This document shows positions 13,503 to 18,119 of a DNA stretch of 40,128 nucleotides, in pieces. The translations under genes and the position numbers were made by a program. Position 1 is the stretch's first letter. Every line of letters begins with the position of its first letter. The stretch comes from Cryomorphaceae bacterium (GTDB lineage: Bacteria > Bacteroidota > Bacteroidia > Flavobacteriales_D > SKUL01): contig REDV01000043.1 of the NCBI GenBank assembly GCA_007695365.1, positions 1 to 40,128 on the forward strand, given 5' to 3'. A model generated the notes under the pieces. That model saw nothing but the letters and a program-made list of their open reading frames with translations, was not told where the DNA came from and ran no database searches.

Positions 13503-14009
13503 ATGCGATTTTTCTCCAATCCGTACAAAGGTCCTTCGGGTGCGGGCGATGAGCCGCCCATTAAGCTTTCGCAGCGCACGCGTTGGCTGGTATTGATTTC
13601 GTTTTTGGCGGGTGCCTTGCTGTTGGTAGATCAGCAGTTAGAGACCGAGTTTGTAGCTGCCCCTATTGAAGATATTGACCTTTCATCCCGGAGGGTGAGC
13701 ACGGCCAAGGGAGGTTTTTTGGCGGAATTTGAACACTTGGGTGGGCCCAAACTTGAGACCGGTGAGTTGGTGGTGATGGAGAGAAGCCGGATTACCAAAA
13801 CCGTGGTGGCTTACCGGAGCTACGAGGCCGTCCTGGTAGATACGCCCCGCGAAAACATCTTTACCTACTGGCCACTTACGTTGGCTCTTGTAATCACTTC
13901 GTTGGTCTTGGTGGCAGGTTGGAACCGCATCGGTATCCGTATTGAACTGCTGGCTATTAACTTGATTCTACTGATAGTGGTGTCGGTTTTCTACTTTATT
14001 TCGAGATGA
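13503..14009 (+). CDS. Membrane protein of unknown function, three helices
   Basis: The 168-residue protein has one hydrophobic segment at about residues 28-44 and two at about 120-140 and 145-165, separated by a soluble domain of some 75 residues rich in charged strands. The family is not recognised. The last 88 bases of the gene, including the stop codon, recur at 15505-15592 as a separate fragment on the other side of the first DUF4143 ATPase gene. The original gene appears intact: it has a promoter-like box and a continuous frame. Confidence 0.8.
   Translation: MRFFSNPYKGPSGAGDEPPIKLSQRTRWLVLISFLAGALLLVDQQLETEFVAAPIEDIDLSSRRVSTAKGGFLAEFEHLGGPKLETGELVVMERSRITKTVVAYRSYEAVLVDTPRENIFTYWPLTLALVITSLVLVAGWNRIGIRIELLAINLILLIVVSVFYFISR
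13922..14009 (+). repeat. Direct repeat copy 1 (gene 3' end)
   Basis: These 88 bases form the 3' end of the three-helix protein gene and are repeated in the same orientation at 15505-15592. By hand count 78 of 88 bases match without gaps. Both copies end exactly at the TGA stop codon. Confidence 0.9.
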
Positions 14010-14125
14010 AGTGCTGCGCGCTTTTTTTTTTGAATCAGGAATTACTCCTGGCCGGGTTTTGTGGTAAGTGTAGTCACAGAGCTACCAGCGAAGGCGATTC
14101 GGTGTGCTAAAGTCAAACCTATTAG

Positions 14126-15334
14126 TCAGTACAAAAAACCGAAGAGCCAGAGCGGGATTTTGTTTTTGAATCCGTACTCGATATTGTCGGCCGCAATATA
14201 GGCCTCCTGAATTCCCTCAAGTTGCATGAAATCCTTGCCTTTACCACCGATTTCAAAGGTGTAGCGTTCGTCAACCAAAAAATCGCCTTTACCGGGGTAT
14301 TGTAAACGATGGCTGTATGAAAGCTGATTGGCGAAGAAAGTTTCGCGCAAGCTACCGGTGTTTATGCCTTCGCCCGAGAGGGCGTACATCAGGTTGGTGT
14401 TATCAGGATAAATCTTGAGGGGCTTTTGAAGCTTGCTGATTCCCTTCGTCTCTTTGAACAGGTTTCGGGTAAGTTTTACTTCGTCCAGGTAATGTAGGTA
14501 AGACAGCAGCGTAATGCGTTGCATACCCATTTTTGCGCTCAACCCGGAAACGTTTGGTACAAATGGAACGGATTGCGACAGGATGTACAACAATTGTTTT
14601 ATTCGGTGTACGTAGCTGATATCCACCCCGCGCAACAGCGGCAGCTCTATCTCAAGAATCATATTGACCACTTCGCGCAGTTTCATGTAATAGAGGTCGG
14701 GCTGCTCGTAGTAGAAGGGAAAGTAACCATGTGCGAGATAATTCCCGAAATGGGCAAGAGGCTTTATGCTCTGGATGATTTCGGGCACAACCTCATGGTG
14801 GTGGTTCAGCGCATCCGTTAGGGATATCCGGACAGGTTCTTCTCCTGTTTGTAATGCCAGGTATTCTCTGAAAGATAAACCTTGAAGCTCATATACCACG
14901 GCCCGGCGGCTAAGATCGGCACGGGCATTCAAAATATCGAGCAGGGAAGAGCCTGTGAAAACAATTTTTAAGTCAGGATAAGCATCGTAAATGTTCTTCA
15001 GTTCCTCCGACCAATTCGGGTAGCGGTGTACCTCATCCACAAAAAGGATTTTGCCACCGTACTTTTCAAAGGAATCAACAAGATCCATAAGTGTGCAATT
15101 GGCGAGCAAAATGGAATCCATTGATACGTACAATAACGCATGAGCCTGCTTGCCTGATTTGAGTTTGATGTATTGCAGCAACAAGGTGGTTTTACCAACT
15201 CCGCGAGGTCCTTTGATTCCGATAAGGCGGGCATTCCAGTTTATTTCGCCCATGAGGCTGCGAACAAATTTGACAGAAGTACTTTTGACTAGCTTATTGT
15301 GCTGAGCGTAGAGCTGTTCGAGTACGGTTTGCAT
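14126..15334 (-). CDS. AAA+ ATPase with DUF4143 C-terminal domain (ATPase 1)
   Basis: The 402-residue protein belongs to the AAA_14/DUF4143 family of P-loop ATPases. Walker A is GPRGVGKTT (residues 42-50), Walker B is 'ILFVDEVHRYPNW', and sensor-like 'IVFTGSSLLDI' follows. The C-terminal region has a restriction-endonuclease-like pattern, 'GDFLVDERYTFEIGGKGKDF', which reads as the D...E-I-GG-K core of a PD-(D/E)xK-type fold. Known for the family: common, often multi-copy and patchily distributed in Bacteroidota, with no firm function. The gene lies between two direct copies of the neighbouring gene's 3' end, and nested inverted repeats sit just upstream of its start. There is no partner gene next to it. 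Confidence 0.93.
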   Translation of the reverse strand: MQTVLEQLYAQHNKLVKSTSVKFVRSLMGEINWNARLIGIKGPRGVGKTTLLLQYIKLKSGKQAHALLYVSMDSILLANCTLMDLVDSFEKYGGKILFVDEVHRYPNWSEELKNIYDAYPDLKIVFTGSSLLDILNARADLSRRAVVYELQGLSFREYLALQTGEEPVRISLTDALNHHHEVVPEIIQSIKPLAHFGNYLAHGYFPFYYEQPDLYYMKLREVVNMILEIELPLLRGVDISYVHRIKQLLYILSQSVPFVPNVSGLSAKMGMQRITLLSYLHYLDEVKLTRNLFKETKGISKLQKPLKIYPDNTNLMYALSGEGINTGSLRETFFANQLSYSHRLQYPGKGDFLVDERYTFEIGGKGKDFMQLEGIQEAYIAADNIEYGFKNKIPLWLFGFLY

Positions 15335-15351
15335 CCTGCGAAGTTAGATTA

Positions 15352-15397
15352 TTTGTTTGTTGTATCAAACAAAAGGTGAAATAAATGTTTGATGCAA
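15352..15397. repeat. Nested inverted repeats upstream of ATPase 1
   Basis: Two overlapping dyads lie 18-63 bases upstream of the ATPase 1 start. One is TTTGTTTG (15352-15359) with CAAACAAA (15366-15373), a perfect 8-bp repeat with a 6-base spacer. The other is TTGTATCAAACA (15360-15371) with TGTTTGATGCAA (15386-15397), matching in 11 of 12 positions with a 14-base spacer. The position suggests an operator, but a hairpin in the transcript leader is also possible. Confidence 0.7.
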
Positions 15398-15502
15398 TAT
15401 ACAAAACATTGCTAAAATGCTTCGTTGCGAAAACAAATTGCAGTTCCTCGTACTCAGTTTTATCCCGGAAGAGTCAGTGAATATGAAGGTGTCAGGGTAA
15501 GC

Positions 15503-15592
15503 ATGAACCGCATCGGTATCCGCATTGAACTTCTGGCTGTTGACCTGATTCTACTGATAGCGGTATCGGTGTTTTACTTTATTTCGAGGTGA
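15503..15592 (+). pseudogene. Duplicated 3' fragment of the three-helix protein gene (direct repeat copy 2)
   Basis: An ATG at 15503 opens a 29-codon frame whose translation from the second codon matches the last 28 residues of the protein encoded at 13503-14009, with three conservative changes (I to V, N to D, V to A). Of the 10 base differences to copy 1, seven are synonymous. No homologous upstream part is evident, so this is a remnant or a transplanted gene end and not a full gene. Confidence 0.85.
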
Positions 15593-15622
15593 GTTATGCC
15601 ATAAAGTTACAGCAAGAGTTTC

Positions 15623-15985
15623 TCACGCCAACACCCACAAAACGATGGCTACCAACGCCGGAATGGCCTGAAACACAAAAATCTTTTTGCTTGCGCTGAA
15701 GCCGCCGTAAATACCGGCAACAGCTACACACCCCAAAAAGAAAAGCGCAATGTTTTTTGACCACACGCTATCGGTCACAAGAAGAGACCAGATAAGTCCG
15801 GCGGAAAGAAAGCCGTTGTAAAGACCCTGATTGGCCGCCAGCACTTTCGTGGGTTCAAACAAATGAGCAGGAAGCGATCTGAAGGTGTGTTTGCCAATGG
15901 TTTCCCAGGCAAACATTTCGAAATACATGAAGTACAGGTGCTCTATAGCTACAAGGGCGGTTATAATTTTTGCAGCAGTTACCAT
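15623..15985 (-). CDS. DUF1304 family membrane protein (intact copy)
   Basis: The 120-residue protein has four predicted helices, the usual size and layout of DUF1304 proteins: 'KIITALVAIEHLYFMYFEMF' (helix 1), the conserved 'LAANQGLYNGFLSAGL' (helix 2), 'IALFFLGCVAVAGIYGGFSA' (helix 3) and a C-terminal helix. The frame opens at 16006, but the ATG at 15985 fits the family start. The function of DUF1304 is unknown. A second copy, broken after 'GLYNG', lies at 17736-17907, and the sequences upstream of both starts are also alike ('CGTAAATATGGGG' on the plus strand in both), so a segment including the promoter region was duplicated. Confidence 0.88.
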   Translation of the reverse strand: MVTAAKIITALVAIEHLYFMYFEMFAWETIGKHTFRSLPAHLFEPTKVLAANQGLYNGFLSAGLIWSLLVTDSVWSKNIALFFLGCVAVAGIYGGFSASKKIFVFQAIPALVAIVLWVLA

Positions 15986-16076
15986 GTGGTTGGTTGTTGG
16001 TAGCAATGATTTTAACTCCTCGTAAATATGGGGAATTAATTAGTGAGCGGGTTGATAGTTTAGATTCGGCCACTCC

Positions 16077-16196
16077 TTACACACTTTTCAGCGAACGAAA
16101 CTTACTCGTAGTGCGCAAATCACTGTAGCGCGGGTCGGTGAGGAGGGCGGCCTTTTGCATGAGGGTGATATTGGCAATTAGATCGTCTAAGTGCAT
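16077..16196 (-). pseudogene. Fragment T, copy A (C-terminal gene remnant)
   Basis: This 39-codon frame translates to a peptide containing 'MQKAALL' and 'SDLRTTSKFRSLKS', followed by a stop. A closely similar segment ('MQKAAII', 'SDLRTTSKFRSLKS') is fused to the truncated DUF1304 copy at 17395-17907. About 68 of 80 bases match between 16081-16160 and 17576-17655. It has the look of the C-terminal tail of a longer protein whose front part is lost; the parent family is not recognised. Confidence 0.7.
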
Positions 16197-16227: not shown

Positions 16228-17355
16228 CTATTCAATTTTATTGCCCTTCACAAAGTCCCTGAAATTTTTTCGGTTAATGACTGCTGTCTTTGCATTATAA
16301 GTGAGGACAAAACGACGAGGAATTTTTGCTTTGTTCTTTTCCCATTTAAATTCAAAACCAAATATTTGGCCGTCTTTGTCTTCTATCAAATCAATTTCTT
16401 GGTGATCCCGTGTTCTCCAAAAGTACATTTTAGCGAATGTTTCCTTGTAGGCGTGTTGCTTGAGCCGTTCCGCGACAAGGAAATTTTCCCATAAAGCTCC
16501 TTTATCGACCCTAAGGTTAAGCGGACTGAAGTTTCCGATTATCATATTTCGGATGCCGTTGTCATAGAAGTAGATTTTTCGGTTTTGTTTGATTTCGTTG
16601 CGCAAATTTCTGCTGAAACTGTTCAACCTGAAAACGATATATCCCTTTTCGAGGATGCTGATGTAGTTCTGTACGGTAACTTTGTTGATTCCAACTATTT
16701 GTGCAAGTTCATTGTAGTTCACCTCACTTCCTAATTGCAATGCCAGGGCTTGTATGAGTTTTTCTAACACTTCTGGTTTCCTGATTTCTGCAAACGCCAA
16801 TAAGTCCCTGTAGAGATAGCTGTTTACAAGATTTTTAAGGATGTTTTTCTCTTGTCCGGGGTTGTTGATTACATCCGGGTAGAAGCCATATAATAACCTG
16901 TTGTCCAGTTGTTGTTCCGACTTTAAAAATCCTATACTTTGTTCGTACTCTTCCCAACTAATTGGAAACATCTCAAACTCCCACTTTCTGCCTGTAAGGG
17001 GTTCATTGATTTGATTTCCCAAATCAAATGATGATGAGCCGCTTACCAGGAGTTGAACGTGTTTAAACTGGTCTGTAATGATTTTAAGAGTGAGCCCAAT
17101 ATTGGGAATTCGCTGTGCTTCGTCCAGAAAGACCAGATCATGTTCGGCTATGATGGTTTTGATTTCTTCCGTGTTGGGATTTGTCAGCAATGTACGGATG
17201 GTCGGATCATCGGCATCTAGAAACAAGTACTCCGTTTGTTCAAGGATTTTTTTAAGTAAGGTGGTTTTACCTACTTGCCGTGCCCCGAACAGTAAGATCG
17301 CCTTACCACTTTTTAGTTTTCTCTTAATGGCCGTTTCGAGGGTACGCTGGATCAT
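16228..17355 (-). CDS. AAA+ ATPase with DUF4143 C-terminal domain (ATPase 2)
   Basis: The 375-residue protein (379 if the ATG at 17367 is used) has Walker A in 'FGARQVGKTTL' near residue 25 and Walker B in 'LVFLDEAQRIPN', typical of AAA_14. A winged-helix-like linker is seen in 'YNELAQIVGINKVTVQNYI'. The DUF4143 domain ends with a clear PD-(D/E)xK pattern: 'HQEIDLIEDKDGQIFGFEFKW' gives D...E-x-K, and 'ENFLVAERLKQ' supplies an upstream Glu. Codon use is visibly more AT-rich than in neighbouring genes, which suggests recent acquisition. The gene lies between two copies of fragment T, and a perfect 17-bp palindrome sits about 30 bases upstream of its start. Confidence 0.93.
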   Translation of the reverse strand: MIQRTLETAIKRKLKSGKAILLFGARQVGKTTLLKKILEQTEYLFLDADDPTIRTLLTNPNTEEIKTIIAEHDLVFLDEAQRIPNIGLTLKIITDQFKHVQLLVSGSSSFDLGNQINEPLTGRKWEFEMFPISWEEYEQSIGFLKSEQQLDNRLLYGFYPDVINNPGQEKNILKNLVNSYLYRDLLAFAEIRKPEVLEKLIQALALQLGSEVNYNELAQIVGINKVTVQNYISILEKGYIVFRLNSFSRNLRNEIKQNRKIYFYDNGIRNMIIGNFSPLNLRVDKGALWENFLVAERLKQHAYKETFAKMYFWRTRDHQEIDLIEDKDGQIFGFEFKWEKNKAKIPRRFVLTYNAKTAVINRKNFRDFVKGNKIE

Positions 17356-17383
17356 TTTTTCTTTCAAATATACGGCAATTGGC

Positions 17384-17425
17384 TATCGTAATGACTAATT
17401 GTTGCTATAATTAGTCATTACGATA
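17384..17425. repeat. Perfect 17-bp inverted repeat with 8-base loop
   Basis: TATCGTAATGACTAATT (17384-17400) is followed by gttgctat and then by its exact reverse complement (17409-17425). It lies 28 bases upstream of the first, and 17 bases upstream of the alternative, ATPase 2 start codon, and the stop codon of the chimeric DUF1304 frame falls inside it. No T-run follows, so it is not a normal terminator. It could be an operator, an element end, or a strand-transfer site. Confidence 0.9.
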
Positions 17426-17907
17426 TCGTGCTGTCGAAAAAAATGGTTTTGTTTTCGTTGTGCTTCGTGGGTGTAAAATACAGAAAAACAATCTTGTGGT
17501 GGGGTTGTTTTTCCAACGCCTCCCATCACCACCTCCTTCTTCTTTTCCTCGCTCCGTTTCGATACACCTTCCTCAACACTTTTCAACGAACGGAATTTAC
17601 TGGTGGTCCGCAAATCACTGAAGCGCGTGTCGGGGATAATGGCGGCCTTTTGCATACTGGTGACTTCGATGCTGTAGTAGCCGAATTCCTCGCTCACTTT
17701 TCCGGTGACGATTTGCACTTCGAATGCATGTGAGCCGTTGTAAAGACCCTGATTGGCCGCCAGCACTTTCGTGGGTTGAAACAAATGAGCAGGAAGCAAT
17801 CTGAAGGTGCGTTTGCCAATGGTTTCCCAGGCAAACATTTCGAAATACATGAAGTACAGGTGCTCTATCGCTACTATGGTGGTTAAAATTTTGGCGGCAG
17901 TTTCCAT
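17395..17907 (-). pseudogene. Truncated DUF1304 copy fused to fragment T (copy B)
   Basis: Residues 1-57 match the intact DUF1304 protein closely (same 'VAIEHLYFMYFEMFAWETIGK' and 'VLAANQGLYNG' blocks) and then stop abruptly. The frame continues into unrelated, charged sequence: 'FEVQIVTGKVSEEFGYYSIE', the fragment T core 'SDLRTTSKFRSLKS', a Lys/Glu-rich stretch, and a tail ending inside the palindrome. Three of the four DUF1304 helices are missing, so the fusion is unlikely to work as a DUF1304 protein. I call it a chimeric pseudogene, although the open frame of 170 codons means expression is possible. Confidence 0.75.
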
Positions 17908-17928
17908 GGGCTTGGTTGTTGCAATCAA

Positions 17929-18119
17929 TGATTTTAATTTCTCGTAAATATGGGGTATTTATCATAGAGCAGCCTCATAGAGTAGATTCGACCGCCCTTT
18001 ACAAACTTTTTGGGCACCGATGTTTACCTTCTTGAATTTCTGCCCCGAATAGTCGATTTCTCATTTTCGCACCAAAACTTCGCCAAATACTTACTTCGTC
18101 CTCCACACCGAAATTCCCT
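17929..18119. other. Intergenic tail of the duplicated region
   Basis: From 17929 to about 18010 the sequence resembles the DNA upstream of the intact DUF1304 gene (16000-16075). Beyond that, up to the pyrR promoter box at 18120, I see no frame, repeat or hairpin of note. No obvious pyrimidine attenuator precedes pyrR. Confidence 0.6.

Follow-up and report, generated by a model that had tools for sequence, protein, structure and literature searches.

The window (the whole stretch of 40,128 nucleotides analysed here) contains a gene whose 3' end occurs a second time, in direct orientation, on the far side of a neighbouring ATPase gene. The two copies of this end flank the ATPase gene, ATPase 1, which according to open reading frames and Pfam matches is the sole gene in a 1.5-kb insert. 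The features of this part of the window are the following; G001 denotes the only other genome of the genus that was compared.

13503 to 14009, plus strand: gene A ('three-helix protein'), 168 aa, without a Pfam match; intact, and the interrupted target
13922 to 14009, plus strand: copy 1, the final 88 nt of gene A, in the gene's frame
14010 to 15504, strand not applicable: insert bounded by the two copies, with a repeat-to-repeat unit of 1583 nt; absent from G001
14126 to 15334, minus strand: ATPase 1, 402 aa, an AAA_14 ATPase
15505 to 15592, plus strand: copy 2, the former 3' end of gene A in its displaced position, adjoining the native downstream sequence
15623 to 16006, minus strand: DUF1304 gene (B), full copy, the native downstream neighbour of gene A

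Copy 1 (13922-14009) and copy 2 (15505-15592) align without gaps over 88 nt with 10 differences (88.6% identity), and both end in TGA. The initial annotation, made from the letters alone, had described such a repeat ending at the same stop codon beyond ATPase 1, with seven of the ten differences synonymous; both statements hold, as a recount gives 7 synonymous differences and 3 that are not. The BLAST E-value of the pair is ~6e-28 within 4.8 kb, and the gene A end sequence is found at just two places in the organism's own 3.5-Mb genome; together these rule out a chance origin of the repeat, while the second also rules out that the gene A end belongs to a dispersed repeat family. Of 60 relatives, G001 was the only one with an orthologue of gene A, and none was found beyond the genus. 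Neither an integrase nor a transposase was found among the main ORFs of the window, in agreement with the earlier remark that no integrase is present.

The G001 genome, which is 81% complete, provides an empty site: the 3' end of gene A directly adjoins DUF1304, with no ATPase 1 and with a single gene end. The joined window flanks align gap-free to G001 across the end of gene A, the intergenic DNA and DUF1304 (reverse complement of G001, 1-529, against window 13887-14009 and 15505-15998). A caveat on the empty site, besides the incompleteness of the genome, is that the G001 contig breaks off within gene A, 123 nt upstream of its stop codon; the match extends 35 nt upstream of the repeat boundary, and the G001 sequence is therefore most likely gene A itself rather than a displaced copy. 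The empty site has the same junction with DUF1304 as copy 2; this junction is therefore ancestral, and copy 2 is the former end of gene A, displaced by the insert. This reverses the initial view that copy 2 was the part placed here later, while the single gene end in G001 upholds the view that the duplication accompanies the insertion.

We used G001 as an outgroup, or third sequence, for polarising the differences between the two copies. Any two of copy 1, copy 2 and G001 differ at 10 positions, so that the three are equidistant, and in the three-way comparison each of them has five private changes (synonymous/nonsynonymous: 4/1 in copy 1, 3/2 in copy 2 and 5/0 in G001). The synonymous excess comes from the living copy 1 no less than from copy 2; it is therefore no proof that copy 2 evolved in another strain, as had been proposed at first. 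The comparison shows that neither copy is a recent identical duplicate of the other, but it neither shows nor excludes that one of the gene ends came from another strain. The 10 differences of the window pair are evenly spread (p 0.78), and polarisation yields no foreign half.

ATPase 1 and a second ATPase further along the window, ATPase 2, match AAA_14 with 105.6 and 105.2 bits, respectively (Pfam cut-off 27). DUF4143, which had been ascribed to ATPase 1, belongs to ATPase 2 (150 bits), and ATPase 1 has no Pfam match to it. The nearest relatives of ATPase 1, at 67% and 62% identity, are from other families and have other gene neighbours. Its predicted structure has a mean pLDDT of 83, and the model matches 2fna_A (Z 16.2, 256 residues, 3.9 A) and 2qen (Z 15.4, 257 residues, 4.1 A), both over model residues 14-321 only; the AAA+ domain and the helical domains that follow it are common to ATPase 1 and the archaeal Walker ATPases of the Sso1545 / PABY2304 type. 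The C-terminal 80 residues of the ATPase 1 family contain invariant E331, D351, E361, G363, G364 and K367, which are reminiscent of a PD-(D/E)XK core; among the structure matches listed for the whole model there was none to the C-terminus, which does not imply that none exists. A long inverted repeat (arm score of at least 14) was seen upstream of 26 of 175 AAA_14 genes, compared with 5 of 491 controls, and some of these repeats overlap a TAnnTTTG-like promoter element, an overlap that suggests that the ATPase genes may be autoregulated.

Flanking repeats were assessed as non-palindromic direct repeats of at least 40 nt, with an E-value of at most 1e-8, between the 1-kb flanks of a gene. The first set covered loci of the own genome, of G001 and of further genomes in the order, and genes of comparable length at those loci served as its controls; the repeats were found around 14 of 98 AAA_14 ATPases vs 4 of 329 controls (Fisher 7e-7), and when the own genus was removed around 9 of 88 vs 4 of 268 (p=7e-4). 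A second set of 80 named records, retrieved with the ATPase 1 family, gave 20 of 77 ATPase genes vs 6 of 162 controls (p=9e-7). The check suggested at the outset, a search for other such ATPases with duplicated flanks, thus gave a positive result in both sets. Four of the six strong AAA_14 family members in the own genome have flanking direct repeats; own-genome ATPases at L026:12575-14070 and L028:1784-3460 have repeats of 87 and 99 nt. Across the order, 34 of 80 genomes have a strong AAA_14/DUF4143 match.

Most of the non-palindromic repeats in the first set are the 3' end of an intact neighbouring gene, to or near its stop codon, as at the independent loci L090, L111, L112, L125, L136, L153 and L157. 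Some repeats of the second set correspond to the 5' ends of genes, and many are dispersed intergenic repeats rather than gene ends; gene ends may predominate simply since a duplicated end keeps the gene alive. The repeats at L091, L095, L146 and L148 are of the hairpin/terminator kind, and were dropped by the palindrome filter or the length limit.

The scar is not specific to the ATPase. By the same criteria, YhcG nuclease genes have flanking direct repeats at 7 of 29 testable loci of the order, and the ATPase is therefore probably cargo. Genome G043 has a HemN-type gene end duplicated around one ATPase; after this duplication, and beyond an intact HTH gene, an array is found at L194:12514-18905, in the order YhcG-type nuclease gene, AAA_14 ATPase, AbiEi/AbiEii pair and AAA_14 ATPase. 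Copies of the HTH gene 3' end, 63 nt or longer, separate these single-gene cassettes, and the YhcG-type nuclease gene is interrupted by a stop. No integrase was found among the array ORFs tested. As to integron gene cassettes, which would bring attC sites with conserved boxes and IntI, no IntI was found among the tested ORFs of the window and the array, and the repeats of the different loci are coding gene ends with no shared motif on inspection.

A reciprocal hybrid of gene ends is found at one locus only, L090 of genome G079, where the filled site is common to G079 and G130. The relatives G126 and G129 are empty at L090, with no ATPase and with single ends. The displaced copy at L090 has the native tail (GALALED before the stop, as in G126; GELALED in G129) followed by native downstream DNA, while the intact gene is native up to the repeat and then continues with a tail that ends in GIGLKI in G079 and GIGLEI in G130. 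This gene tail is similar to those that orthologues have in other species (GIGLLQLL and GNELKI, also before the stop). The two copies have an identical core of 65 nt and differ at one edge only. An exchange of ends of this kind would be expected from a single crossover with a diverged homologous end on incoming DNA, and the reciprocal hybrid therefore points to a homologous crossover within the conserved gene end; a crossover is favoured at L090 because simple target duplication supplies no homologous foreign tail. The resemblance first noted to elements that insert at gene 3' ends and bring a replacement end is thus supported by L090 as far as the replacement end is concerned, whereas the 5' ends in the second set show that 3' ends are not the only targets.

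Differences located at the edges of the repeats are seen at L090, L153 and L157 (p 0.002-0.024) and marginally at L112 and L136 (p 0.05); this clustering could partly be an artefact of local alignment. At L153 and L111 the copies share the position of the stop and differ in the stop codon. The relatives of L136 within its genus are too divergent for an empty-site comparison, and the orthologous tails at L157 were compared without separating the native from the other copy.

ATPase 2 is located within the duplicated DUF1304 gene, between two 3' ends from a distant dnaE-like (DNA polymerase III alpha-like) gene. The initial annotation overlooked the direct repeats around it, which are nested as follows.

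15811 to 16088, minus strand: outer repeat, the DUF1304 5' part and its upstream flank
16080 to 16168, minus strand: inner repeat C, 89 nt, the 3' end of the DNA polymerase III alpha-like gene
16228 to 17367, minus strand: ATPase 2, 379 aa, AAA_14 and DUF4143
17384 to 17425, strand not applicable: inverted repeat, 17-nt perfect, upstream of ATPase 2
17513 to 17718, minus strand: inner repeat C', 206 nt, from the 3' end of the polymerase gene, like C
17733 to 18010, minus strand: outer repeat B', a second, truncated copy of the DUF1304 5' part and upstream flank

The outer pair is thus 15811-16088 / 17733-18010, and the inner pair, 16081-16168 / 17576-17663, is the 88 nt common to C and C'. The intact dnaE-like source gene is on contig C38, with no adjoining ATPase; C traces to this one gene, which rules out that it is a dispersed repeat family. 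G001 has an ATPase 2 at the same site (84% protein identity); on its upstream side come the polymerase gene end, then 24 nt from the gene A end and a DUF1304 3' piece. Duplicated pieces form a mosaic around ATPase 2, and their erosion has taken a different course in each of the two species. The simplest reading is that ATPase 2 would have arrived with the ends of its former address still attached, and then duplicated its new address. The inverted repeat at 17384-17425 is a probable operator. An ORF at 17395-17928 that fuses the truncated DUF1304 N-terminal part to the dnaE-like C-terminal end is probably a relic, and beyond ATPase 2 in G001 (L024, reverse complement 2764-2817) there is a stretch of 54 nt, 78% like the ATPase 1 upstream region, that is perhaps the remnant of another ATPase.

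In our judgement, an insertion of ATPase 1 that duplicated the target end is well supported, with a probability of roughly 0.85. The repeat itself, the empty site in G001, the enrichment in the AAA_14 family and, at L090, the native/foreign reciprocal hybrid are observed directly. ATPase 1 would be an accessory unit ~1.6 kb long, consisting of one gene, which came to lie between gene A and DUF1304 through a process that duplicates its target and needs no integrase, known as 'insertion with long target duplication'; the direct repeat that characterises this process is present around ATPase 1 (88 nt, 88.6%). On DNA coming in from another strain, the ATPase would have adjoined a variant of the gene A end; recombination within this end would leave a working end on gene A (copy 1) and push the former end behind the ATPase (copy 2). 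We infer that the window insertion took the same route as that at L090 and that a circular or fragment intermediate was involved: the donor may have been a small circle, or a fragment already bearing the duplicated end, and since a donor fragment with both repeats yields the same product, a circle is not required; neither a circle nor another intermediate was seen. The direct repeats could then permit clean loss, re-excision and the stacking of more units. Homologous crossover, for which the evidence comes mainly from one other locus, L090, is the likeliest mechanism of insertion; it is somewhat less secure than the insertion itself, and we regard it as reasonably probable.

A true target-site duplication, where a staggered cut duplicates 45-230 nt of target on insertion and the copies then drift, strikes us as unlikely. 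The cut would be made perhaps by the nuclease-like C-terminal domain of the ATPase, whose family keeps E/D/E-x-x-K-like invariants there, or by a host enzyme; the repeats are of differing length and sequence, with gene 5' ends and intergenic DNA among them, which is compatible with this, and the equal divergence of the window pair fits an old event. However, the gene tail at L090 is a homologous foreign tail and not random element sequence, the stops at L153 and L111 differ in codon while keeping their place, young repeats have identical cores and diverged edges, and cargo free of any ATPase (YhcG, AbiE) behaves alike. We consider it improbable that the AAA_14 ATPases, with their nuclease-like C-terminal domain, mobilise themselves by breaking a gene end and integrating next to it by templated repair; such a homing-like process would need no integrase or transposase.

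It is likewise improbable that a recombinase supplied in trans (e.g. a tyrosine recombinase encoded elsewhere) carries out site-specific integration at the gene ends: hybrid ends and arrays do look like attL/attR products, but no integrase is among the main window ORFs or the array ORFs tested, and the repeats of the different loci vary widely in length and have no common core on inspection. Least probable of all is that a tandem duplication of the gene end or region preceded the ATPase, whose later arrival between the copies was fortuitous, or that old duplicated genes are eroding, a view for which the mosaic around ATPase 2 might speak, but which is at odds with the association in 14/98 and 20/77 ATPase genes vs 1-4% of controls and with the single ends at the empty sites of G001, G126 and G129.

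Integrase-dependent genomic islands at gene 3' ends restore or replace the gene end on insertion. The crossover reading would give the ATPase 1 insert this same property, restoring or replacing the end of gene A; unlike such islands, it has no integrase gene, is a one-gene unit, and belongs with repeats that are long and variable.

PMC1643837 and PMC3031569, citing Nobusato et al. 2000, describe insertion with long and variable target duplication as a suggested mechanism of gene mobility, reported for restriction-modification genes of Helicobacter pylori. The likeness to those cases lies in an accessory gene that is present or absent between relatives, in long direct repeats of the target, and in a process that needs no transposase. 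In the Bacteroidota studied here, by contrast, AAA_14 ATPases, and also YhcG or AbiE genes, are the cargo, and the repeats are often precise gene ends, with a foreign replacement tail at one locus and a stacked array at another. As ATPase 1 is an AAA_14 protein and not a restriction-modification enzyme, the cargo differs from that in the first reports, and we therefore file the window insertion as a variant that works like this class, not as an original case.

In Arabidopsis, according to the relevant part of PMC2869330, repeats of >30 bp flank 36% vs 2% among genes with a known parental site, and circle formation with homologous recombination was proposed for repeat-flanked moved genes. The enrichment of flanking repeats around moved genes is similar here; that case concerns plant chromosomes, and that part of the paper does not describe a gene-end pattern. 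An integrase-less genomic island of E. coli excises via short direct repeats (PMC5426353), and is like the present units in being mobile, flanked by direct repeats and without a recombinase of its own; unlike here, its excision was laboratory-tested and ascribed to RecA-independent recombination (PMC5426353). As far as the parts of the literature cited here show, it is the cargo families, the gene-end character, the reciprocal hybrid and the stacked array that are new with respect to the known class.

The AAA_14/DUF4143 ATPases are numerous and patchily distributed, and DUF4143 is named in only one paper of the open literature searched; the gene-end scars are a direct and searchable record of their movement, and former addresses can be read from older scars, the dnaE-like ends flanking ATPase 2 being an example. 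Our findings suggest a general route, independent of integrases, for the spread and stacking of single defence-like genes (ATPases, YhcG nucleases and AbiE pairs) in Bacteroidota.
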